Assembly: GCA_949291675.1 (NCBI GenBank) | Contig: CASEWR010000045.1 | Span: 1 to 47,003 of the forward strand | Reading direction: 5' to 3' | DNA from: an uncultured Desulfovibrio sp. | Lineage (GTDB): Bacteria; Desulfobacterota; Desulfovibrionia; Desulfovibrionales; Desulfovibrionaceae | DNA length: 47,003 nucleotides | Part shown: positions 19,517 to 30,921 of the stretch, piece after piece | Layout of the letters: each line of letters starts with the position of its first letter | Numbering within the stretch: position 1 is the first letter of the stretch | Notes under the pieces: model-generated | What the model was told of the DNA's origin: nothing | Database searches by the model: none | Seen by the model: only the letters and a program-made list of their open reading frames with translations | Translations under genes and position numbers: made by a program

Positions 19517-21094
19517 ATGCACAAGCAAGAAAACAACAAGGCCATGTCTGCAGATCCTGCCGGCAATATTTCCATGGCTGCAGACAGGGGCACCAGGGCA
19601 GCGCACCCTGCCGGGTCTGACAGGACATCTTTTCTTGTCCAGCCTGACGGTGCAGGGCTTTTGCATGACAAGAAGGTTGTCCTGCTCGAATATCTGGAAC
19701 AGATCTTCAATGCCTTTAAAGAGGGCATCTGTATCTCCGATGCCGACGGCATTGTTGTCCACCTCAATGAGCGCCACGCTGAGATTACCGGCATCCCCCG
19801 CAATGAAATGCTCGGGCATTCTGTGATGGAATTTGTCAACAGGGGCACGTTCGATGTGGTGCTCAATCCCGAGATTATGCGCACAGGCCAGCCGGCTACC
19901 AGTGTGCAGACAGTGTCGGGAGGGCGCAAGCTCATCCTGGAGGCCTTTCCTGTCTTTGACAGGGACGGACACGTGGTGCTGTGCATGACCTTCATGCGCG
20001 ACATCACCATGCTCTCGTCCATGCGTGAGCAGCTTGATGCCCAGAAGGAACTGCTCACTGCCTTCCAGCAGCTGACCTCCTTTGGCGACGATCAGATCAT
20101 CTCCCTCAAGCTCCCCAAGATCTTCACCAGCAGGGCCATGGTCAATCTCTATGGAGAAGTGGATCGCATTGCCCGGACAGACGCCACTGTGCTCCTGCTC
20201 GGTGAGACAGGTGTGGGCAAGGACGTCATTGCCAGGCGCATCCATGCCGCAAGTCCGCGCTCTGACAAACCCTTCATCAAGGTGGACTGCGGCAGCATTC
20301 CCGAAAACCTCATCGAGACCGAGCTCTTCGGCTACGCGGCAGGCACCTTTTCCGGCGCCAGCCGCCAGGGCAAGGTTGGCCTCATTGAGGCAGCCTCCGG
20401 GGGCACCCTCTTCCTGGATGAAATCGGCGAGCTGCCCATGAGCATGCAGACCAGGCTGCTGCGCGTGCTGCAGGACTTCGAGATCATGCGCGTGGGCTCC
20501 ACAGTGCCAAAGCCGGTCAATGTCCGTGTTATTGCCGCCACCAACAAAAACCTGGAGCAGGCCATTGCCAACGGCGAGTTCCGCAGTGATCTCTACTACC
20601 GCCTCAAGGTGGCTGTACTTGCCATTCCTCCCTTGCGCGAGCGCAAGGCCGACATCCTGCCTCTGACCCGCATGTTCCTCAACTTCTACGGGCGCAAGTA
20701 CTACCGCAAGCTCGCCCTCTCCGGGGAAGCAGAGCAGCTCCTGCTCAAGCACAAATGGCCTGGCAATGTGCGCGAGCTGGAAAATCTGGTCCAGGGCCTG
20801 CTTGTCACCTGCAAGGGCTCGGAGATCCTCCCCCAGGACCTGCCCTTTGGCGCCAGTCCTCACAGGGAAAGTGTCGCCGCAAAGCCACAGGCGCAGGAGA
20901 TTTCTCTGGAAGGGCGCACCTACAAGGAAATCATGAAGGAGTACGAGAACAAGGTCCTTGTTGCCGCCATGGAGCGCTGGGGCAATATCGGCGATGTGGC
21001 CAGGCACTTCCAGGTGGACCGCAGCACCATCTTCCGCAAGGTCAAGGACCTGGAAAAGCAGGGGCTGATTAAACTGAAGCCGCAGCGCGGCTGA
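19517..21094 (+). CDS. PAS-domain sigma-54-dependent activator (bEBP), candidate sulfonate regulator
   Basis: A 525-residue enhancer-binding protein when started at the ATG 19517. Domains: disordered N-terminus, PAS sensor (about 55-165, [22 protein letters not shown] onward), AAA+ domain (about 200-435) with Walker A GETGVGKD (229-236), Walker B LFLDE (298-302) and arginine-finger region R356/R362, and a Fis-type helix-turn-helix (about 485-510). The sigma-54 contact loop reads GTFSGA (276-281) rather than GAFTGA. It activates RNA polymerase holding sigma-54 after sensing a small ligand through PAS. It is the only such activator in the window, and two strong sigma-54 promoters lie 2.8 and 8.3 kb downstream, in front of islA and the MFS symporter, so it is the prime candidate regulator of both. 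The ATG at 19544 is an alternative start. Confidence 0.88.
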
Positions 21095-21127
21095 GTCTGC
21101 CTGAAGCCGCAGCGCGGCCTTGTCTGC
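21074..21127 (+). repeat. 27-bp tandem duplication across the activator stop codon
   Basis: Two adjacent 27-bp units, each beginning CTGAAGCCGCAGCGCGGC and ending GTCTGC, differing at three or fewer positions (TGA in the first, CTT in the second). The first unit holds the last six codons and the stop; the second follows directly. Confidence 0.85.
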
Positions 21128-21138
21128 CTGATCAGGCA

Positions 21139-21166
21139 TGGTTGCAGACAAGGCCGTCTGCAACCA
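21139..21166. terminator. stem-loop after activator gene
   Basis: TGGTTGCAGAC and GTCTGCAACCA form a perfect 11-bp stem with loop AAGGCC. No T run; part of the transcription stop zone between the convergent activator and dehydrogenase genes. Confidence 0.5.
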
Positions 21167-21179
21167 GGCAGCACGTCTT

Positions 21180-21206
21180 GAGGGCATGCCAGAGAGGCAT
21201 GCCCTC
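21180..21206. terminator. second stem-loop in the convergent spacer
   Basis: GAGGGCATGCC and GGCATGCCCTC, perfect 11-bp stem with AGAGA loop, lying 14 bp after the previous hairpin. Probably a bidirectional stop with it. Confidence 0.5.
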
Positions 21207-21262
21207 ATTGGTTCTGCAACCATTGTTTCTGCCCCGGGGCTGAGGCAGGAAGAGAGACCGTT

Positions 21263-22129
21263 TCAGTCCCTGGTAACAAGGCTTTCATAGACAGCTGCGC
21301 AGTCCCTGGCACCAAGGCCCTTGTGCAGAGCCTGGTCAAACAGAGAGAGGGCAGTGGCAAAGAGGGCGCCTGGTGCAGACCAGCCATCTGCCATGGCGCA
21401 GCCCAGGGTGAGGTCCTTGTGGGCCAGTTCCAGGGCAAAGCGGGGAGTATAGTCGCCACTGGCCATCATGGGACCGCGCACATCCATCTGGAAGCTGTGG
21501 GCACCGGTATCGCCAATGAGTTCCAGCAATCTGCCGGGCTCAAGGCCTGCGGCTCTGCCCAGGGCAAGACCTTCAGCAAGCACAGCCAGGTTGGTCATGC
21601 CAATGAGATTGCTGATGAGCTTCACAGCGCAGGCGGCATCAATGGAGCCAACCATGTGCGGCACGCCAATGAGCGGGAAGATATCTGCCAGACGGGCAAT
21701 GGTGGCCTCGTCACCGCCGATGAACAAAGGTTCTTCTGCCTTTTCGGCATGCTGCGGCGTCTTGCCCAGGGTGCACTGCACATAGCCTGTGCCGCGCTCA
21801 GCTGCTGCATTGGCAAGGGCATGGGCTGTCGCCGGGTCAATGGTGCTGAGCTCCACATGGATGGCTGCGGGAGCAAGCTGTGCATAGAGGCCGTCATCGC
21901 CGAGCATGCAGTCACGCACATGCTCGGGTCTGGGCAGGCAGGTGAAGATGACATGGCAGGCAGCCAGCTCTTCCCTGCGCTCAGCTCTGCGGGCTGTGGG
22001 GCCTGCAGCCAGAACGGACTCTGCGCTGGCAGCTGTGCGGTTCCAGACAAGCACGTTTTTGCCTGCACGGACCAGATTGCGGGCAATGGGAGCCCCCATG
22101 GCTCCGGTACCAAGAAAACCCAGAAGCAT
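21263..22129 (-). CDS. beta-hydroxyacid dehydrogenase family oxidoreductase
   Basis: A 288-residue NAD(P)-dependent dehydrogenase of the 3-hydroxyisobutyrate/sulfolactaldehyde reductase family. It has the Rossmann start GFLGTGAMGAPIA (4-16), the STIDP loop (95-99) and the catalytic lysine segment AVKLISN (K170, N174). The substrate loop normally reading VSGG is replaced by CTLGKTPQHAEKAEE with a lysine at 123. Sulfolactaldehyde reductase YihU has an arginine at 123 in a similar GRT loop that holds the sulfonate (recalled, not checked). Given IslA nearby, a sulfonated aldehyde or hydroxyacid substrate is a fair hypothesis. Start at 22129 has AAGGAG. It is divergent from the amidohydrolase gene, with a 351-bp shared spacer. 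Confidence 0.8.
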   Translation of the reverse strand: MLLGFLGTGAMGAPIARNLVRAGKNVLVWNRTAASAESVLAAGPTARRAERREELAACHVIFTCLPRPEHVRDCMLGDDGLYAQLAPAAIHVELSTIDPATAHALANAAAERGTGYVQCTLGKTPQHAEKAEEPLFIGGDEATIARLADIFPLIGVPHMVGSIDAACAVKLISNLIGMTNLAVLAEGLALGRAAGLEPGRLLELIGDTGAHSFQMDVRGPMMASGDYTPRFALELAHKDLTLGCAMADGWSAPGALFATALSLFDQALHKGLGARDCAAVYESLVTRD

Positions 22130-22480
22130 ATGTTCTCCTTAAGAAAGCAATGGGACCAGGGCCAGTTGTCCTGTGCAGCACACAGGAAAAGGCGCCTGGA
22201 AATGCAGAGGAAAAAGACTCTGCACCAGGGCAAAGCAAAAACCATGCCTTTCATGGGCAGAGAACATATGCCGGCAACGGACAAGGATCCCAGTGTGGCA
22301 GCGCATGTGTCTGGCATGAAATTTGCTTAGCTTGTGAAACAGTTCATCAGACAGCCTTTGCAAGGCAGGCCGGACTGTTTCCCGGCGTCCATGGCAGGTC
22401 CGTGGCTCGTCTGTGGCACAGCCGGCACAAGGCTTCACATCATCACTTCTCTCTGTCGTTTATCACATCAGGGTACTGCT
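22130..22480. other. 351-bp divergent spacer, dehydrogenase / amidohydrolase
   Basis: No gene and no clear promoter. A TGGCAC near 22413 is followed by GC at a spacing two bases short of a sigma-54 promoter, so it is not called. Divergent regulation of both genes from here is possible. Confidence 0.4.
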
Positions 22481-23329
22481 ATGAAAATTTTCGATTTTCG
22501 TCTGCGTCCTCCGTACAAGGGTTTCACCAGACTCGGCCTCTACAATCCCCCCTGCAACGAGGGACTGCCCCAGAAGTATCACGGGCGTCCCAGCGAGGCT
22601 GCAAGGCAGAAGTCCATGGATCTGTTCTGGAAGGAAATGGATGAGGCCGGTATCTGCGGCGGTGTGGTCATTGGCCGTCAGGTGCCCAATGATGCTGCCT
22701 CAATCTCCAATGATGACATCCATGACATGGCTGTGGAATACCCGGACCGCATCATTCCCTTCGGCAGCCTTGATGTGAGCCGCGGCGTTGCCCGCACCAT
22801 GGACGAACTTGAGCGCTGCATTGAGTGGGGCTTCCGCGGCATGGCCCTTGAGCCCGCCTATTGTGAGCCGCCCCGCTTTGCCGACGCCAACGTCCTCTAC
22901 CCCATCTACGCCCGTCTGGAAAAGGCAGGTATCCCTGTCCTTCTGACCATGAGCTTCTTCCAGGGCAATCTGGACTATTCCAATCCCGCTGCAGCCCAGA
23001 GGGTGGCAGAAGACTTCCCCAACCTGCAGATCATCCTGGCACATGCCTGCTACCCCTGGATCCCCATGGTGATGAACATTCCCATCGTCACTCCCAATAT
23101 CTGGCTTCTGCCTGACCTTTACCTCCTCAACCCCGACGCTCCCGGCAGCGAGATGTACGGCCAGGCCCTGCGCTGGCTCAATGGCGAGCATGTGCTCTAC
23201 GGTTCTGCCTATCCCTGCTACAATCTGAAACAGGGCATTGAGGACGTGGAGCGCTTCAACCTCTCTGACGAAATCAAGGAGAAGTTCTTCCACAGCAATG
23301 CCGAAAAGCTCCTCGGCATCACAATCTGA
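22481..23329 (+). CDS. amidohydrolase-fold protein lacking the metal ligands
   Basis: A 282-residue TIM-barrel protein of the amidohydrolase-2 (PF04909-type) family. Where active members start with xDxHxH, this reads FDFRLRP, so both histidines are arginines (R7, R9). The strand-5 histidine region reads PVLLTMSF, without His; the strand-6 histidine is present (ILAHAC, H188); and the strand-8 aspartate is alanine in YGSAYP (A243, normally GSDxP). Only one of five ligands remains, so metal-dependent hydrolysis is unlikely. The barrel itself looks intact and full length, so it is a pseudoenzyme or uses other chemistry rather than a decaying gene. Start at 22481 follows CAGGG. It ends before a terminator at 23384-23419 and lies directly upstream of the islA promoter region. 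Confidence 0.75.
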   Translation: MKIFDFRLRPPYKGFTRLGLYNPPCNEGLPQKYHGRPSEAARQKSMDLFWKEMDEAGICGGVVIGRQVPNDAASISNDDIHDMAVEYPDRIIPFGSLDVSRGVARTMDELERCIEWGFRGMALEPAYCEPPRFADANVLYPIYARLEKAGIPVLLTMSFFQGNLDYSNPAAAQRVAEDFPNLQIILAHACYPWIPMVMNIPIVTPNIWLLPDLYLLNPDAPGSEMYGQALRWLNGEHVLYGSAYPCYNLKQGIEDVERFNLSDEIKEKFFHSNAEKLLGITI

Positions 23330-23383
23330 GCTGCCCCTGCCCCCCTTTCCTGAGATCTTCTCCTGCACTCTTCTTCTCTCCAG

Positions 23384-23419
23384 CCCCGGTATTTCAGAAT
23401 TTCCTCTGAAGAACCGGGG
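23384..23419 (+). terminator. terminator of the amidohydrolase gene
   Basis: CCCCGGT and ACCGGGG arms with inner TTCA/TGAA pairing, followed by TCTTTG, 55 bp after the stop codon. Confidence 0.55.
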
Positions 23420-23563
23420 TCTTTGTGTCTGTGCACCACAGGAGCACAGCAGGGAAAGGACAGAAGACGGGCAGATGGCGGGCAGAAGATGGGCAGAAGA
23501 TGGCCAGAGGAAGGACAAGGCCTGCATACCGACGCAAATGCTTTTCTGCACAAAGTCCTGCCA

Positions 23564-23582
23564 TTTGTGTTTTTTTGCACAC
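23564..23582. promoter_or_regulatory. enhancer-like inverted repeat 1 upstream of islA
   Basis: TTTGTG, seven T, GCACAC. It matches the right arm of the palindrome upstream of the MFS gene (29088-29107) at 18 of 20 positions. About 280 bp upstream of the -24 element. Confidence 0.6.
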
Positions 23583-23691
23583 CCTGTACGGACACAGGAC
23601 TGCTCATGTCACCATACTCTTTTGAAATCACGCTAAAAAATATCCATTCTGTGCTGCAGAAATGTGTGCCGGCTGCCGTGCGTGCCAGATT

Positions 23692-23711
23692 TTGTTGTTT
23701 TTTCGCAACAA
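23692..23711. promoter_or_regulatory. enhancer-like inverted repeat 2 upstream of islA
   Basis: TTGTTG-N8-CAACAA with a T-rich centre, perfect 6-bp arms, same arm spacing as the sites near the MFS gene. About 135 bp upstream of the -24 element. Confidence 0.5.
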
Positions 23712-23742
23712 GAAAAATTCTTTTCTGGTATCAAGGCATTAG

Positions 23743-23779
23743 AACAAATTTGTTGCATTTTTGCACAAAGCCATTTGTG
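23743..23779. promoter_or_regulatory. enhancer-like composite site 3 upstream of islA
   Basis: Three overlapping symmetries: AACAAATTTGTT (23743-23754), TTTGT...ACAAA (23749-23769) and CACAAA-GCCA-TTTGTG (23764-23779). The repeated half-site is TTTGTG/CACAAA. Its end is 66 bp upstream of the -24 element, a usual activator position. Confidence 0.55.
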
Positions 23780-23844
23780 AACTTTCTCACATCTGAATCA
23801 ACGAGATGACTGGTAGTGCATGACATTCCAGCAAGTTACAGATT

Positions 23845-23860
23845 TGGCACACACTTTGCT
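23845..23860 (+). promoter_or_regulatory. sigma-54 promoter of islA
   Basis: TGGCAC (23845-23850), five bases, TTGC (23856-23859), T: an exact match to the sigma-54 consensus with GG and GC 12 bp apart. Predicted start of transcription is near 23871, giving an 87-nt leader before islA. Confidence 0.88.
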
Positions 23861-23957
23861 TACAGGTACACAGGAAAGGCAACTTTCCCTGACCAAGACA
23901 TATCAAGACACATCCAAATCACCCATACATATTTCCAAAGCTTGGAGGCTTTAGATC

Positions 23958-26432
23958 ATGAGCGACGACGTCCTGACTCTCTCTCCCCAGGAAGAACGCG
24001 TTATCAACAAAAAGGTAAACCGCGAGGGCCGCGAGCGCGTCTACAAGATTCTTGAACGCAACCAGTTCACCCTTCCCTACGTTGACGTGGAGCGCGCCAA
24101 GTACTTCACGGAATCCATGAAGGAAACCGAAGGCGAGCTGCTGACCCTGCGCTGGGCCAAGGCTCTGAAGAACGTTGCAGAAAAGATCACTGTGTGGATT
24201 ACGCCTGACCAGCTCCTTGCCGGTCGCGTGGGCAAACTCGGCCGCTACGGCATCCTCTATCCTGAAATTGATGGTGACTTCTACCGCGAAGTGCTGGGCG
24301 ACCTCGAGCATCGTGACAAGAGCCCCTTCAAGGTTGACCCCGAGGACCTCAAAACTGTCATGGAAGAAATCGCCCCCTACTGGGAAGGCAAGACCTACCA
24401 TGAACAGCTCAACAAGGTTCTGCCCGCAGAACTGCGCAATGTGACCTACGACGACGAGCGCGGTCTGAAATCCAAGTTCGTGGTCAGCGAAACCTCTTCC
24501 TACCGCTCTGCACTGCAGTGGGTGCCGGACTACGAGAAGGTCCTCAAGCGCGGCTTCATCGACATCCAGAACGAAGTCAAGGAACGCCTGGCCAAGCTGG
24601 ACCTCGAGAACAGCGTGGACCTGTGGGAAAAGAAGCCCTTCCTGGATGCCATGTACATCGTGTGCGACGCCATCATGATCTGGGCCAGGCGTCATGCCGA
24701 CCTCGCCCGTGACATGGCCGCCAAGGAACAGGATGCCACCAGAAAGGCCGAACTTGAGCAGATCGCTGAAGTCTGCGAGCGCGTGCCCGCCTACCCCGCC
24801 CGTAACTTCCGCGAAGCCATGCAGTGCCAGTGGTTCGTGCAGCTCTTCTCCCGTATCGAGCAGAAAGCCAGCGCCATTATCTCCAACGGCCGTATGGACC
24901 AGTACCTCTATCCGTACTTCAAGAAGGATATTGAGGAAGGTACTCTGACCAAGGCTCAGGCCAAGGAACTGCTGGAATGCATGTGGGTCGAAATGGCTCA
25001 GTTCATCGACCTGTACATCAACCCCGAGGGCGTGGAATTCCAGGAAGGCTATGCACACTGGGAGGCTGTGACCATTGGCGGACAGACTCCTCAGGGTGAA
25101 GATGCCACCAATGACCTTTCCTATCTCTTCCTGGAATCCAAGCGCGAGTTCCCGCTGAACTACCCCGACCTCGCTGCCCGTATTCACTCCCGCACTCCCG
25201 AGCGTTTCCTCTATGAAGTGGCTCTGACCGTCAAGGACGGCTCCGGCTTCCCCAAGCTGATCAACGACGAGGAAGTTGTCTTCCTGAACAGCGTCAAGGG
25301 CTGCCCCGTGAGCGAAGCTCTGGACTACGCTGTGTCCGGCTGCACCGAGACCCGTATGCCCAACCGTGACACCTACACCTCCGGCTGCGTGTACGTGAAC
25401 TTCGCCACAGCTCTGGAAATGACCCTGTACAATGGCCGCATGCTCTACTACGGTGATGAGAAGCTCGGCCTTGAGACCGGCGACCCCACCACCTTCAAGA
25501 CCTGGGACGAATTCTATGCTGCCTACCGTGCCCAGCAGATCAATCTGCTGCACAAGGCCTTCCAGCAGCAGGTTATCGTCGATAAGCTGCGTCCTCAGCA
25601 CTTTGCAGCTCCTCTCTCCTCTGTGCTGCATAACCTCTGCATGGAGAGCTGCCTCGACCTGCACACCGAGAAGATCCCTGGTGGCGTTGATTACTCCTAC
25701 TTCGAGTTCCTCGGCTACGGCACCATCGTTGACTCCCTGGCCGCCATCAAGAAGCTGGTCTACGAAGAAAAGAAGCTCACCATGGCCCAGGTCATCGAAG
25801 CCTGCCGCGCAGACTTCAAGGGCTACGAGCCCATTCGCGAAATGCTGAGCCATGCTCCCTGCTACGGCAACGATGATCCGTACGCCGACTCCATTGCCAA
25901 GGACGTGGACCGCATCTGCCAGCTCGAAGCCATCAAGAGCACCGAAGAACGCGGCGTGCATGTGGACGTGCGCTACGTGCCCATTACCTCTCACGTGCCC
26001 TTCGGCCAGGTTGTTTCCGCAACCCCCAACGGCCGTCATGCCTGGACAGCTCTCTCCGACGGTACCTCCGCATCCCACGGTGCTGACTCCAACGGCCCCA
26101 CCGCAGTGCTGCTGTCCAACTATCATTCCAAGAACTACGACCTCATCAATCGCGCTTCCCGTCTGCTCAATCTGAAGCTGTCCCCGAAGAGCGTGGCTGG
26201 TGACGCCGGCACCAGGAAGATCATGAACATCATCCGTACCTGGTGCGACCTCAAGCTCTGGCACCTCCAGTTCAACATCGTCAACAGGGAAACCCTCCTC
26301 AAGGCCCAGGAAGATCCGGCCAGCTACCGCAACCTGCTTGTGCGTATCGCCGGTTACAGCGCCTACTTCTGCGACATCTCCCGCTCCCTGCAGAACGACA
26401 TCATTGAACGTACTGAGCATGAGGACTTCTAG
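23958..26432 (+). CDS. islA: isethionate sulfite-lyase, glycyl radical enzyme
   Basis: An 824-residue glycyl radical enzyme that cleaves the C-S bond of isethionate (2-hydroxyethanesulfonate) to acetaldehyde and sulfite. The thiyl cysteine and base are in SGCTETR (C462, E464); the glycyl radical loop is [10 protein letters not shown] (G799). Compared with the Bilophila enzyme as I recall it (R189, Q193, W374, C468, E470, G805), every residue I can place recurs exactly six positions earlier: R183, Q187, W368, C462, E464, G799. This favours IslA over choline, glycerol or hydroxyproline lyases. Start at 23958 follows GGAGG. It is driven by the sigma-54 promoter at 23845 and followed by its activase after a structured 264-bp gap. 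Sulfite released would feed dissimilatory sulfite reduction, encoded elsewhere. Confidence 0.94.
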
Positions 26433-26455
26433 GTCCGAAAGCCATCTGCCTGACA

Positions 26456-26482
26456 GCTGCTGTACATCTGCTGTACAGCAGC
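26456..26482 (+). other. stem-loop 1 between islA and islB
   Basis: GCTGCTGTACA and TGTACAGCAGC, perfect 11-bp stem with a 5-nt loop, 24 bp past the islA stop. No T run follows. Probably an mRNA-stabilising or processing structure. Confidence 0.55.
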
Positions 26483-26503
26483 AGGAAGCGTAAGTACTTT
26501 ACC

Positions 26504-26554
26504 GGAGAGGCCCATAGACACAGTATCCGTACATGTCCGTGAGCCTCTCCTTTT
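26504..26554 (+). terminator. stem-loop 2 with T run between islA and islB
   Basis: GGAGAGGC pairs with GCCTCTCC, followed at once by TTTT. The loop is 31 nt. Looks like a leaky intrinsic terminator that would lower islB relative to islA. Confidence 0.5.
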
Positions 26555-26558
26555 CTAC

Positions 26559-26600
26559 GCAGTGTACGCGTAGTGAACGCGTTTTCTTCACGTACACTGC
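26559..26600 (+). other. inverted repeat 3 between islA and islB
   Basis: GCAGTGTACG and CGTACACTGC, perfect 10-bp arms 22 bp apart. Could be RNA structure or an operator; it lies about 97 bp upstream of islB. Confidence 0.45.
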
Positions 26601-26696
26601 ACATATTCTTTTTGACAGCTTTTCTCTGTACTGCATGCATGTTGTGCAGAGCAGCATGACCAGCTGCATGTCCAGCTGCAAGACAAGGGACTCTTC

Positions 26697-27608
26697 ATGT
26701 CTGCCATGATCGATGACGAACAAAAAGAAGGTATAGTCTTCAACATCCAAAAATTCAGTGTGCATGATGGTGAAGGCATCCGCACACTGGTCTTTCTCAA
26801 GGGCTGCCCCTTGCGCTGCCGCTGGTGCAGTAACCCTGAATCCCAGCGCATGCAGCCGGAACATGCCTTCAACCCCTCCCGTTGTATCACCGCTGCGCTG
26901 TGCGGCCGCTGCCTTCAGGCCTGTCAGACCGGTGCCCTGAGCCTGATGGAAGGGCTGATCTGCTTTGATGCCCGCAAGTGTGCCCAGTGCATGGCCTGTA
27001 CCGAAGCCTGTCCTTCCGGAGCCCAGACAAAGTACGGCTCTGTCATGAAGGTCAGAGACATCCTCGATAAGGTTGAGCGCGACGGCGCCTTCTTTGCCCG
27101 CTCCGGCGGTGGCCTTACCCTTTCCGGCGGTGAAGCTCTGGCCCAGTTTGACTTTGCGCTTGCCCTGCTGCGCGCTGCCCGCAAGCGTGCCCTGGACACC
27201 ACCATTGAAACCTGCGGGTACTACCCCTACGAGCATATGCACGCTGCCTGCGAACAGCTGAACAAACTCATCATCGACATCAAGATGCTCGATCCTGTAA
27301 AACACAAGGAGTATACAGGGGTTGACAACGCCCGCATTCTTGAGAATTTCAAACGTGTGGTTCAGGATTTCCCGGATCTGCCCATCCTGGTGCGCACTCC
27401 CGTCATCCCGGGCGTGAACGATTCCGACGAGGAAATCCAGGCCATTCGCGACTTCATCCCTGTGCGTCCCAATATCGAGTATGAGCTGCTGACCTATCAC
27501 AGACTCGGACAGCCCAAGTACAGCTATCTCGGGCGCGGCTACGGCCTGGATGTCGATCTGGTGGCTGACAAGGAACGCATGCAGCATCTGCGCAAGATGG
27601 TACGCTGA
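26697..27608 (+). CDS. islB: isethionate sulfite-lyase activating enzyme (radical SAM)
   Basis: A 303-residue glycyl-radical-enzyme activase. The radical SAM cluster cysteines are C37-x3-C41-x2-C44 in GCPLRCRWC. An inserted ferredoxin-like domain carries two further four-cysteine sets (C63, C69, C72, C76 and C95, C98, C101, C105), as in activases of the choline, glycerol and isethionate lyases. SGGEAL (about 140) is the usual SAM-contact region. It reductively cleaves S-adenosylmethionine and abstracts hydrogen from IslA G799. Start at 26697 follows AAGGGA. Separated from islA by three stem-loops, which would reduce its expression relative to islA. Specificity for IslA is inferred from position. 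Confidence 0.93.
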   Translation: MSAMIDDEQKEGIVFNIQKFSVHDGEGIRTLVFLKGCPLRCRWCSNPESQRMQPEHAFNPSRCITAALCGRCLQACQTGALSLMEGLICFDARKCAQCMACTEACPSGAQTKYGSVMKVRDILDKVERDGAFFARSGGGLTLSGGEALAQFDFALALLRAARKRALDTTIETCGYYPYEHMHAACEQLNKLIIDIKMLDPVKHKEYTGVDNARILENFKRVVQDFPDLPILVRTPVIPGVNDSDEEIQAIRDFIPVRPNIEYELLTYHRLGQPKYSYLGRGYGLDVDLVADKERMQHLRKMVR

Positions 27609-27767
27609 CACCCCATCTGACAGTGCCAGAAGCTGGCCCCTGGTCACGCTTTTCACATAACTGACATGTGCCGCACTCCGAACCACGGAGGCGCGGCACA
27701 CCTTTTCTGAAACTCCCGTCTGCATGAGGCCGGATGAGGCCCGTTGCCAGGCAGGTCCGAGGACAAT

Positions 27768-28658
27768 ATGCCATCACTGTATCTTGGTCTGCTCACAGCG
27801 CTGTGCCTGACAAATTTTGCCGGCAATTCCATCTTCTGCCGCGCGGCACTGATCTTCAACAACATGGGGCCGCTGCAGTACACAGGTCTGCGCGCCCTCA
27901 TTGCAGCATCCATCCTGGTGCTCTTATGCCTTGTAAAGATCATTCATCCCCGCACTCAGGGCGGAAATATCTGGCATGACATCTGGCAGGAAAGCAACTG
28001 GACCGGCGCCCTGTCCCTCTTTGCCTACATGATCTGCTTCTCCCTGGGCTATGTCGGCATTGATTCAGCCCCAGGCACGCTCATCATCAATATGTGCGTG
28101 CAGTTCTGTATGATAGGCTGGGGCTTTATGCACGGCATTCACCCCAACAAGCGCCAGTACACAGGCTTTGCCATTGCCACAGCAGGCCTGATCATCCTCC
28201 TCATGCCAGGCCTCTCGGCTCCGCCCCTGCTCTACTCCCTCTTCATGGCTGGCACAGGCTTTGCCTGGGGAGTGTTCAGCATCAGCGGACGTGATGCACA
28301 TTCAGCAGCGCTGGCAACTGCGGGCAACTTCTGCAGAGCCGCCATTCCCGGTTTCTTCTGTCTGGTGGCAGGCTTCCTGCTGGAGGGAACAGCCGAGCCC
28401 CTGGCCTGGCTCTTTGTCTTTGCCGGTGCTCTTGCCTCCTCTCTGGGCTATATTCTCTGGTATGCCATTGTGCCCCGCTACTCGCTGGTAAATATCTCCA
28501 TCATCCAGCTGGCAGTACCAGTCATTACCGCCATCCTGGGTACCATCTTCCTCTCCGAAGTCATCACTATGCGCCTGGTCATTGCCGCAGCACTCATCCT
28601 GGGCGGCATCACTCTGGCCATCAAGTCTGCAGCCCATCACAAGGCAGCAACCAGATAG
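27768..28658 (+). CDS. DMT-superfamily permease (EamA domains)
   Basis: A 296-residue inner-membrane protein with about ten hydrophobic segments in two EamA-like repeats, of the drug/metabolite transporter superfamily. Segments such as LYLGLLTALCLTNFAGNSIF at the start and the SEVITMRLVIAAALILGGI close are typical. Start at 27768 follows GAGGAC. It lies 159 bp after islB with no terminator between them, and is followed by the strong terminator at 28734-28794, so it is probably in the islA-islB transcript. Family members export or import small metabolites and substrate cannot be read from sequence; in this context isethionate entry or export of a product such as acetate or sulfite are possibilities. 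Confidence 0.85.
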   Translation: MPSLYLGLLTALCLTNFAGNSIFCRAALIFNNMGPLQYTGLRALIAASILVLLCLVKIIHPRTQGGNIWHDIWQESNWTGALSLFAYMICFSLGYVGIDSAPGTLIINMCVQFCMIGWGFMHGIHPNKRQYTGFAIATAGLIILLMPGLSAPPLLYSLFMAGTGFAWGVFSISGRDAHSAALATAGNFCRAAIPGFFCLVAGFLLEGTAEPLAWLFVFAGALASSLGYILWYAIVPRYSLVNISIIQLAVPVITAILGTIFLSEVITMRLVIAAALILGGITLAIKSAAHHKAATR

Positions 28659-28733
28659 GCAAGCCCTGACAGGCAACCCAAGTCACAGCAGATTGCCCTC
28701 TTTTTCACAAAAACTCGTTTCCCAACATCAGTC

Positions 28734-28802
28734 AGGTCCCCGGACAGACTGCCGTCGCGAATTTGCATCACGACTGCGTCACTTCCGGGGACCTTTTTTT
28801 TG
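28734..28802 (+). terminator. strong terminator of the islA-islB-DMT transcript
   Basis: AGGTCCCCGGA and TCCGGGGACCT form an 11-bp stem (28734-28794) with a long loop, followed by a run of seven to eight T. Confidence 0.8.
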
Positions 28803-29067
28803 TACAAAAATCCTCTTTTTAAACTGTGTTTTCGTGACTTCTTTCCGCTTGCACTTGCCCGCAGAAAAGAAGGGAGCCAGCAGTCAGCGCTTTTCTGAGA
28901 AGCAGCAGTAAAAGCTAATAATTCTCATTTCTTTAACAATGTTACACACTCCGCATCAGCTGCCTGCCAGGGATACATGCCTTTGCCCGGACGCTGCTCG
29001 TTGCGAGTCCTTGCAGCAGTGTTTGTCACTCTTTTTGAAATGCAAATGGTGTCCGGCAGCACAAAAC

Positions 29068-29107
29068 TTGTGCAAAAGAACACAAAATTTTGTGTTTTTT
29101 TGCACAA
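29068..29107. promoter_or_regulatory. 40-bp near-perfect palindrome, probable activator site
   Basis: The arms are 20 bp each with no spacer and a single mismatched pair. Left arm starts TTGTGCAAAA and ends ACACAAAA; right arm starts TTTTGTGT and ends TTTTGCACAA. Each arm is itself a TTGTG-N8-CACAA inverted repeat, so it reads as two adjacent dimer sites. It lies 327 bp upstream of the -24 element of the MFS promoter, at enhancer distance. Confidence 0.75.
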
Positions 29108-29358
29108 CACACAGAAGAGCTCATATTATAACACATTGAAATTACTTATACTTTTTGATATTTTGCAGGGCTTATGAAAAATCAATCAAGCTCATGCCGC
29201 ACCACAGCATTAAATAATTTCATAAAAATTTTCAATATCTTAACTAAAAGCCATTGTGTGCATTTGTGAAACATACCTCTTGTGCAGCTGTGCAACAGGG
29301 TGCCTGGTGAACTGTGCACGAATGCACATCACAGAGGAAACATGTGTTCTCTCGCTAA

Positions 29359-29373
29359 AAAATTTTGTGTTTT
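29359..29373. promoter_or_regulatory. second half-site copy near the MFS promoter
   Basis: AAAATTTTGTGTTTT, identical over 15 bp to the centre of the 40-bp palindrome (29084-29098), and 61 bp upstream of the -24 element. Confidence 0.45.
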
Positions 29374-29433
29374 CAAGCGACTAACATGACATTTTGAACG
29401 AAGTCTGTCCCATGGAGAAAAGTTGTGTGGTTG

Positions 29434-29449
29434 TGGAACGCTTCTTGCT
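29434..29449 (+). promoter_or_regulatory. sigma-54 promoter of the MFS symporter gene
   Basis: TGGAAC (29434-29439), five bases, TTGC (29445-29448), T. One deviation (A for C) from TGGCAC-N5-TTGC, correct 12-bp spacing between GG and GC. Start of transcription expected near 29460, about 103 nt before the ATG. Confidence 0.8.
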
Positions 29450-29562
29450 TTCCTGCTAATTGTGAAAATTTGAACGGATCCACACACCCCTTGCTTGTTT
29501 ACCCCTAGCGCTCGGATCAGGTGCGCACAACATCCGACGCCGAAACTTATCAGGATTTCACC

Positions 29563-30921
29563 ATGGAACACGAACTCACCCATGAACAGCAGAAAAATCT
29601 GCGTCGAGTCGTCATTTCGTCCGTTCTGGGCGCTGTCATTGAATGGTACGACTTCTTCCTGTACGGCGTTGTCGCCGGTCTGTTCTTCAACCAGCTGTAT
29701 TTCCCTGATTTTGACCCCCGCATCGGTACGATGCTGGCTTTTGCAACCTTCGCGGTCGGTTTCGTTGCTCGTCCTCTTGGCGGTGTCATCTTTGGTCACT
29801 TCGGTGACAAAATCGGCCGCAAGAAGATGCTCATTCTGACCCTGGAAATCATGGGTACAGCAACAGTCTGCATCGGCCTGATCCCCACCTACGAATCCAT
29901 CGGCATCTGGGCTCCTCTCCTGCTCATCCTCTGCCGTCTTGCCCAGGGCATTGGCCTTGGTGGTGAATGGGGTGGCGCAGTCCTCATGTCCTTTGAGTCT
30001 GCTCCGAAAGCCAAGCGTGCCTTCTACGCATCTCTGCCGCAGATTGGCATGTCCATTGGCCTGATGCTGTCTTCCGGCGTCATCGCTGTTCTGAGCGCCC
30101 TGTGCAGTCCTGAAGCCTTCCTGAACTGGGGCTGGCGTATCGCCTTCTTCCTCAGCGCCATCCTGCTCGTCATCGGCTCCTATATGCGAATGACCGTCCA
30201 GGAAACCAAGGACTTCTCTGATGCCAAGCACAAGGTTGCCGAAAACGAGAACAAGTTCCCCCTGGTCGAAGTCTTCAAGAAGTACCCCAAGATGGTCCTG
30301 GCAGGCATGGGTGCCCGCTTCATGGACGGTGTATCCTTCAATGTCTTCGCAGTGTATTCCTTGAGTTACCTGACCCAGCAGCAGGGCATCCATCGAGATG
30401 CAGCCCTTTCCTCCCTCATCATTGCTTCCGCAGTGATGACCCTGACCATCCCGCTCTGGGGCCAGTACGCTGACCGTCTCGGCAAGGCCAAGGTCTTCGG
30501 TTCCTGCGTCTTCCTGCTCGGTATCGTCAGTTTCCCCGCCTTCTGGCTGCTGCACAACTTCGCATCCAGCTTCCTCGTGGTCACCCTGACCCTGACCCTG
30601 GTTTTTGCAATCTTCCACGCCGGCCAGTATGCCACCATGGCTTCCCTCTTCTCTGAGTGCTTCCCGGCAGAAGTCCGCTACTCCGGCATCTCCTTCGTCT
30701 ATCAGTTCACCGCCATCTTCGCTTCCGGTCTGACCCCCATGATCGCTACCGCACTGACCGGCTGGAACGGTGGTGAACCCTGGTATCTGTGCATGTACTT
30801 CCTCTTCTGGGGCTTTGTCAGCTCCTACAGTGCCTATGTCCTCAATCGCATGGGCAAGAAGATGCGCGCAGAGCATGCCGCAGAAGAAGCTGCCAGAAAG
30901 GCTGCCGAACAAGCTGCCTGA
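29563..30921 (+). CDS. MFS metabolite:H+ symporter (MHS family), candidate isethionate importer
   Basis: A 452-residue, twelve-segment inner-membrane transporter. The MHS signature is clear: SVLGAVIEWYDFFLYG at the first segment, the MFS loop motif GHFGDKIGRKK (78-88) and RLAQGIGLGGEWGGA in segment 4, as in the proline/betaine, alpha-ketoglutarate, shikimate and citrate symporters. The C-terminal tail is Ala/Glu-rich. Start at 29563 is chosen because the homologous region begins just after it; a GTG at 29521 is in frame. It is transcribed alone from a sigma-54 promoter with upstream sites like those at islA. Co-regulation makes a C2 sulfonate such as isethionate a likely substrate, in place of the TRAP importer described in related bacteria. 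The family alone would not predict this. Confidence 0.88.
   Translation: MEHELTHEQQKNLRRVVISSVLGAVIEWYDFFLYGVVAGLFFNQLYFPDFDPRIGTMLAFATFAVGFVARPLGGVIFGHFGDKIGRKKMLILTLEIMGTATVCIGLIPTYESIGIWAPLLLILCRLAQGIGLGGEWGGAVLMSFESAPKAKRAFYASLPQIGMSIGLMLSSGVIAVLSALCSPEAFLNWGWRIAFFLSAILLVIGSYMRMTVQETKDFSDAKHKVAENENKFPLVEVFKKYPKMVLAGMGARFMDGVSFNVFAVYSLSYLTQQQGIHRDAALSSLIIASAVMTLTIPLWGQYADRLGKAKVFGSCVFLLGIVSFPAFWLLHNFASSFLVVTLTLTLVFAIFHAGQYATMASLFSECFPAEVRYSGISFVYQFTAIFASGLTPMIATALTGWNGGEPWYLCMYFLFWGFVSSYSAYVLNRMGKKMRAEHAAEEAARKAAEQAA

Follow-up and report, generated by a model that had tools for sequence, protein, structure and literature searches.

Gene content of the locus

The 47,003-nucleotide stretch analysed here (hereafter the window) is contig CASEWR010000045.1 of an uncultured Desulfovibrio sp. 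(assembly GCA_949291675.1), and its positions 19517 to 30921 hold a candidate regulon for the import and cleavage of 2,3-dihydroxypropane-1-sulfonate (DHPS). First comes the gene of a sigma-54 activator with a PAS domain, then a divergently oriented gene for a beta-hydroxyacid dehydrogenase, and after these the genes for an amidohydrolase, a glycyl radical enzyme and its activase, a membrane protein of the EamA/drug-metabolite transporter (DMT) type, and a transporter of the major facilitator superfamily (MFS). A locus of an uncultured Desulfovibrio (L033) has all seven genes as well, with order and strands unchanged. A sequence-only reading of the window had proposed a sigma-54 sulfonate regulon, in which the glycyl radical enzyme was named islA and isethionate was the substrate; the regulatory outline of this idea is right, while the substrate and the claim of novelty have to be given up.

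Identity of the sulfonate lyase

The glycyl radical enzyme (hpsG, 23958..26432, plus strand) is very probably HpsG, the DHPS sulfolyase, as judged from structure matches, clade and an active-site isoleucine. The catalytic Cys462, Glu464 and the Gly799 of the glycine loop are all present. The best matching structure is 6lon (1561 bits), followed by 5ymr (1201 bits) and the isethionate sulfite-lyase 7kq3 (1152 bits). In the lyase tree the enzyme falls within a clade of 27 rows that includes L080, a locus of a Bilophila bin, with a support of 100 in the Shimodaira-Hasegawa-like approximate likelihood ratio test (SH-aLRT, quick method). This bin holds two paralogues, L080 with 6lon as its best structure and L057 with 7kq3, to which the window lyase is 81.7% and 60.9% identical, respectively. 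We take 6lon to be HpsG, an identity that a paper search did not settle and that the Bilophila pair supports. Since B. wadsworthia carries both HpsG and IslA, which are 60.6% identical (PMC8397734), and the Bilophila bin carries the pair L080 and L057, L080 and 6lon are read as HpsG. The active site gives a further distinction. Phe682 is an active-site residue of IslA (PMC8473560), and at this position isoleucine is found in 27/27 members of the HpsG clade, including the window lyase (Ile676), versus phenylalanine in 42/52 of the others.

The NCBIfam model NF048011, whose name is sulfopropanediol dehydratase, gives the window lyase 1478 bits against a cut-off of 1000, but IslA-type proteins score equally, all of them over the cut-off. 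Hence, annotation by this model may mislabel both enzymes, and it was dropped as an arbiter between them. The adjoining activase (hpsH, 26697..27608, plus strand) is a radical SAM activating enzyme with 460 bits against NF048010 (cut-off 430).

It is very improbable that the locus is an IslA regulon sensing isethionate, as the sequence-only reading had it. HpsG and IslA are close paralogues with common equivalents of Arg189, Gln193, Trp374, Cys468, Glu470, Arg678 and Gly805, and the like scores from NF048011 would suit either enzyme; yet the match to 6lon is 409 bits better than that to the structure of isethionate sulfite-lyase, the tree and the isoleucine place the protein with HpsG, and the same genome has a separate IslA-type gene on contig C9, with 7kq3 as its best structure. 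An IslA identity, and the name islA with it, was therefore rejected, as the structure matches, the tree and the residue in the active site all speak against it. As the enzyme groups with HpsG rather than IslA, its likely substrate is DHPS and not isethionate.

The C9 gene, 61% identical to the window lyase and accompanied on its contig by an activator paralogue, is one of two more lyase genes in the genome. The other is a partial gene at the end of contig C137 (L096), which lies behind an amidohydrolase gene; nearby, on the opposite strand, is a membrane gene that looks TRAP-like as judged by eye.

Sigma-54 promoters

Three transcription units of the window are preceded by sites of the type TGGCAY-N5-TTGCT on the plus strand. 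The predicted promoter of hpsG, TGGCACACACTTTGCT (23845..23860), lies 113 bases before the ATG at 23958, and the sigma-54-like promoter of the MFS gene, TGGAACGCTTCTTGCT (29434..29449), lies 129 bases before the ATG at 29563; both are located where the sequence-only reading had placed them and have the correct spacing. A third site overlooked by that reading, TGGCATGAAATTTGCT (22312..22327), stands 169 bases before the ATG of the amidohydrolase gene (22481..23329, plus strand; amidohydrolase 2 family, PF04909, 121 bits). When each upstream region was shuffled with its dinucleotides preserved, the site score was reached by 3/1000 shuffles for hpsG, 2/1000 for the amidohydrolase gene and 25/1000 for the MFS gene. 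The MFS element gains support from L033, where scanning located TGGCCCGAAATTTGCA at a closely similar position, about 142 bases upstream of the MFS gene (the MAFFT alignment misplaced this promoter). L033 has sigma-54 sites at all three units, including TGGCACGGAGTTTGCT before its amidohydrolase gene. Likewise, of the 23 other hpsG loci for which 250 or more bases upstream were available, 21 have a sigma-54 site within 260 bases of the start. The genome of the window encodes a single RpoN (one hit).

A possible minus-strand site facing the dehydrogenase gene, AGGCATGGTTTTTGCT (22234..22249), was found by the consensus scan only, and with it four units may be under sigma-54 control. L033 also has a minus-strand site, at another distance.

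Operators common to the lyase and importer units

The sequence-only reading had noticed TTGTG-N8-CACAA-like inverted repeats before both the lyase and MFS genes, and these are real. The repeats at 29068 and 29090 are exact, those at 23565 and 23775 have one mismatch each and that at 23751 has two. Exact copies occur at ten places in the 3.07 Mb genome, against two for the reversed control, and the 29068/29090 pair makes up two of the ten. Across the whole window, 31 matches with up to two mismatches were counted against a shuffle mean of 23.3, and 8/100 shuffles reached 31; this count is not significant, so the evidence lies in the clustering of the sites. A looser genome-wide search for TGTGC-N6-GCACA was uninformative; with one mismatch it gave 359 matches per strand, against 54 for the control.

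A matrix was obtained by an unseeded motif search in 20 hpsG upstream regions, with the window, L033, L014 and L025 left out. Only motifs with G or C were kept, and a third-order background was needed, as earlier runs were swamped by A/T runs. The motif found was ttgTGCAaattTGCAcaa. The 20 training regions fit the matrix by construction, and thus the tests are confined to the window, L033 and regions that are not hpsG upstreams. In the blind scan of about 47,000 positions of the window, the five best matches were 23751, 29090, 29068, 23565 and 29280, all of them in the two control regions, and in L033 the eight best matches were all located either upstream of hpsG or in the stretch from the DMT gene to the MFS gene. 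The window has 13 sites of at least 11.5 bits, of which four precede hpsG, six precede the MFS gene and three lie elsewhere; shuffles of the two regions gave means of 0.10 (hpsG) and 0.28 (MFS), and 0/1000 reached the observed counts. Independently of the matrix, TTGTG-N8-CACAA with up to two mismatches has 21 matches in 17 of the 20 hpsG upstreams (shuffle mean 5.7, reached by 0/200), versus 4 to 11 matches at spacings of 5 to 7 and 9 to 11.

The predicted operators before hpsG are TTGTGTTTTTTTGCACAC (23565..23582, 15.1 bits), aligned to TTGTGTTTTTTTGCACAC in L033, TGTTGTTTTTTCGCAACA (23693..23710, 12.9 bits), with a similar element aligned in L033, and TGTTGCATTTTTGCACAA (23751..23768, 22.3 bits), the top match of the window. 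Those before the MFS gene are the two exact repeats TTGTGCAAAAGAACACAA (29068..29085, 15.7 bits) and TTGTGTTTTTTTGCACAA (29090..29107, 18.5 bits), followed by TTGTGCAGCTGTGCAACA (29280..29297, 14.5 bits). Hence, a promoter type and upstream sites shared by the two units, as the sequence-only reading had suggested, are supported.

The consensus of CRP is TGTGA-N6-TCACA, and its geometry equals that of TTGTG-N8-CACAA. The repeats could accordingly be sites of a CRP/FNR-family regulator, which the equal spacing and the CRP-like site at 23775, TTGTGAACTTTCTCACAT, would favour; this is highly unlikely all the same, for the unseeded motif is TGCA-N4-TGCA with C and not A at the inner position (0.75 versus 0.08), and the motif accompanies sigma-54 sites and the activator family.

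Elsewhere in the genome, three operator-like sites of 16.2, 13.8 and 14.2 bits lie within about 100 bases on contig C154 near 9890 (L098, 1390-1491), about 200 bases upstream of an open reading frame whose start resembles a flavin-dependent dehydrogenase, without a strong sigma-54 site. Operators on contigs C119, C238 and C75 were kept out of the regulon, as no strong sigma-54 site is near them.

The PAS activator and its relatives

The activator gene (19517..21094, plus strand) encodes a protein of 525 residues with a PAS domain (PAS_9, 43 bits), an AAA+ sigma-54 interaction domain (PF00158, 222 bits) and a C-terminal helix-turn-helix (HTH) domain that matches HTH_28 (25.6 bits, cut-off 25), with HTH_50 below its cut-off. 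The loop known as GAFTGA is present as the variant GTFSGA, and the recognition helix reads VDRSTIFRK. In a tree of 44 rows the protein falls in a clade with 100/100 support, whose 17 rows are 16 distinct genes because the window gene was entered twice. Of these genes, 11 stand in hpsG loci and 5 in IslA-type loci of Mailhella (four of the latter are represented in the lyase tree, one lyase being too short). Activators beside IslA-type lyases form neighbouring branches. This linkage of the clade to hpsG supports the activator as the likely regulator, as the sequence-only reading had supposed. A relative of the activator is present in 10/28 hpsG loci, many contigs being short.

The helix DRSTIFRK is nearly unchanged across the tree, which fits a common TGCA-N4-TGCA core and would also allow cross-talk. 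The operators may thus belong to the activator paralogue of the C9 IslA cluster, or to both proteins, with the DHPS and isethionate systems cross-regulated. The paralogue is 47% identical and retains the helix as VDRSTVFRK, and the C9 IslA-type gene has operators of its own (14.8, 18.5 and 13.2 bits); nevertheless, it is the window activator that is linked to the sites and whose clade is linked to hpsG in 11/16 distinct genes. The flanks differ as well, TTGTGCA versus TGATGCA/TGTTGCA, yet both kinds occur among hpsG sites. Altogether, control by the paralogue, alone or jointly, is a possibility of some weight, though the less likely one.

Five Mailhella IslA-type loci (L050, L053, L063, L075 and L084) combine an hps-type activator with a DMT relative, a possible exchange of regulators, and three of them (L050, L053 and L075) have a strong sigma-54 site and operator-like sites about 3.2 kb upstream of the lyase. 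The Bilophila activator of L080 (18148 onward) has the loop GTFSGG, with an unusual last residue.

The MFS importer

The last gene (29563..30921, plus strand) encodes an MFS protein of the metabolite:H+ symporter (MHS) type, with PF00083 and PF07690 over their cut-offs, and is a probable DHPS importer. Against TIGR00883, the model of the metabolite:H+ symporter family (TC 2.A.1.6), it scores 408.8 bits, the cut-off being 443.45. At four other hpsG loci (L010, L013, L021 and L025) the second operator cluster precedes genes with domains of tripartite ATP-independent periplasmic (TRAP) transporters, and in L027 the genes behind it encode a short-chain dehydrogenase and a binding protein of the ABC type.

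A survey of 149 Desulfovibrionaceae genomes, the own genome among them, found an MFS relative in 14 (at 1e-100) and a lyase in 48 (at 1e-200). MFS relatives of 70% identity lie within 3 kb of hpsG-like genes in three genomes (G114, G068 and G017), and MFS genes lie within 5 kb of IslA-like genes (62-63% identical) in four (G114, G040, G137 and G089). When about 1.5 kb upstream was checked at 19 other MFS loci, operators were found before the MFS gene or its amidohydrolase neighbour at 7/10 loci with at least 60% identity and at 1/1 with 53%, and at 0/8 loci with 52% or less. Loci L100 to L103 have the order amidohydrolase, MFS and activator, the first two genes as Kazakov et al. describe. A second MFS gene of the own genome, 61% identical (contig C20, 2690-4036; L113), is preceded by the perfect sigma-54 site TGGCACAATGATTGCA and by a single operator-like site; the stretch examined showed no lyase.

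The MFS gene could also be controlled together with the lyase and carry another substrate, for example a C4-dicarboxylate as Kazakov et al. proposed. Family members do transport shikimate, citrate and other organic acids (PMC4641369, family models); this alternative is unlikely nonetheless, since the MFS gene occupies the place that TRAP importers have in other hpsG loci and its 70%-identical relatives lie close to hpsG.

Flanking genes

The divergent gene (21263..22129, minus strand) encodes a beta-hydroxyacid dehydrogenase family protein (Pfam NAD_binding_2/NAD_binding_11). It scores 128 bits against the sulfolactaldehyde reductase model NF012005, below the cut-off of 348, and its homologues are present in 12/28 hpsG loci. 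Its best match among known structures is 9k2j with 317 bits, the next structure having 143 bits. The EamA/DMT-type membrane protein (27768..28658, plus strand; PF00892, 59 bits) has homologues in the five Mailhella IslA-type loci and in L033.

The proposed DHPS regulon

Taken together, the window probably encodes a regulon for DHPS respiration, and a rather good case can be made for its whole course from activator to sulfite reduction. The PAS-AAA+ activator would sense DHPS or a related metabolite and bind the paired operators (TTGTGCA-N4-TGCACAA) that lie 85-370 bases upstream of the promoters of hpsG and the MFS gene. From there it would drive RpoN-RNA polymerase at the sigma-54 promoters of hpsGH-DMT, of the MFS gene and probably of the amidohydrolase gene. 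The MFS importer may then take up DHPS, and HpsG, activated by HpsH, would cleave it into sulfite and hydroxyacetone. The sulfite would be respired by DsrAB, and DsrB is encoded in the genome of the window. Sequence comparison carries the predicted gene families and promoters, the shared operators, their conservation and the linkage of activator and lyase.

Several observations weigh against this regulon. Although the sigma-54 site before the amidohydrolase gene is strong, no operator there scores above 7.8 bits, and upstream of the activator gene nothing exceeds 9.0 bits and no sigma-54 site was found. The MFS sigma-54 element is weak by itself, given its 25 matching shuffles. Among 23 HpsG-clade loci, three (L024, L029 and L034) have no operator, and L029 and L034 have no promoter either; at L027 and L028, promoter and operators are present, yet no relative of the activator was found within 22 kb (10 kb each side). 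The five Mailhella loci make the link between activator and hpsG non-exclusive. Likewise, IslA-type loci carry the same operator in part (4/17 with and 4/34 without an activator in the locus), so that either paralogue may bind the window sites.

DHPS derives from sulfoquinovose (SQ), the sugar of plant sulfolipid, and its respiration yields H2S in the gut. In the host, a gut-type sulfate reducer, the genes for the predicted import and splitting of DHPS are most likely under the joint control of one sigma-54 activator. More tentatively, the sulfonate-lyase activators might be one family with a common TGCA-N4-TGCA code, in which one operator-promoter module serves interchangeable importers of unrelated types (TRAP, MHS, and in L027 an ABC-type one), and the sites of the DHPS circuit and of its isethionate paralogue are read mutually where a genome has both. 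With the operator and the activator clade defined, hpsG-type circuits and their importers could be spotted in uncultured genomes.

Comparison with known systems

The D. vulgaris lyase of the DVU2827 regulon is, by our reading, IslA/IseG, DVU2824 presumably being IseG. Contrary to what the sequence-only reading had supposed, the arrangement in the window had precedents, related ones having been reported by Kazakov et al. (2015; PMC4641369) and Xing et al. (2019; PMC6453916). The former predicted DVU2827 sites for both the lyase operon and the gene of the amidohydrolase; in D. desulfuricans and D. piger, an MHS-family MFS gene replaces the importer for C4-dicarboxylates (TRAP-type). They named the enzyme pyruvate formate-lyase and assigned the regulon to the metabolism of pyruvate and C4-dicarboxylates (PMC4641369). 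Xing et al. identified the lyase IseG, which an MFS transporter adjoins in D. piger DSM 749 (PMC6453916). The window resembles the DVU2827 regulon in its one-component sigma-54 activator (loop GAFSGA in DVU2827) adjoining a glycyl radical enzyme operon that has a sigma-54 promoter and, here, a conserved palindrome, in the sigma-54 promoter of the amidohydrolase gene, and in the MHS-family importer. It differs in that the enzyme is HpsG with an activator clade of its own and the MFS gene forms a unit of its own instead of sharing an operon with the amidohydrolase gene. Two readings are thereby corrected, as islA here is hpsG and the 'pyruvate formate-lyase regulon' of 2015 is sulfonate respiration.

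The HpsGH system of B. wadsworthia reportedly goes back to Liu et al. in 2020. The Bilophila hpsG locus L080 has, like the window, an orthologous activator, a sigma-54 site and operators; unlike in the window, no MFS relative was found in it. The same lyase and activase are DHPS-induced in B. wadsworthia, where DHPS specifically elicits expression of a cluster of four genes, and hpsG and hpsH transcripts were up 83- and 93-fold in SQ-degrading microcosms (PMC8397734). No paper that treats sigma-54 control of hpsG turned up in a limited literature search, and a search for HpsU found nothing.

The IseG/IslA clusters have, like the window, a paralogous lyase, an activase and an importer of the MFS or TRAP type, with isethionate instead of DHPS as the substrate (PMC6453916, PMC8473560, PMC8667426), and a PAS regulator gene is listed beside islAB in B. 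wadsworthia (PMC8667426). The window is thus a further case of the regulatory scheme known since 2015, in which an importer of one type has taken the place of another; new here are the DHPS assignment, the hps activator clade, the operator common to importer units of differing types, and the third promoter.

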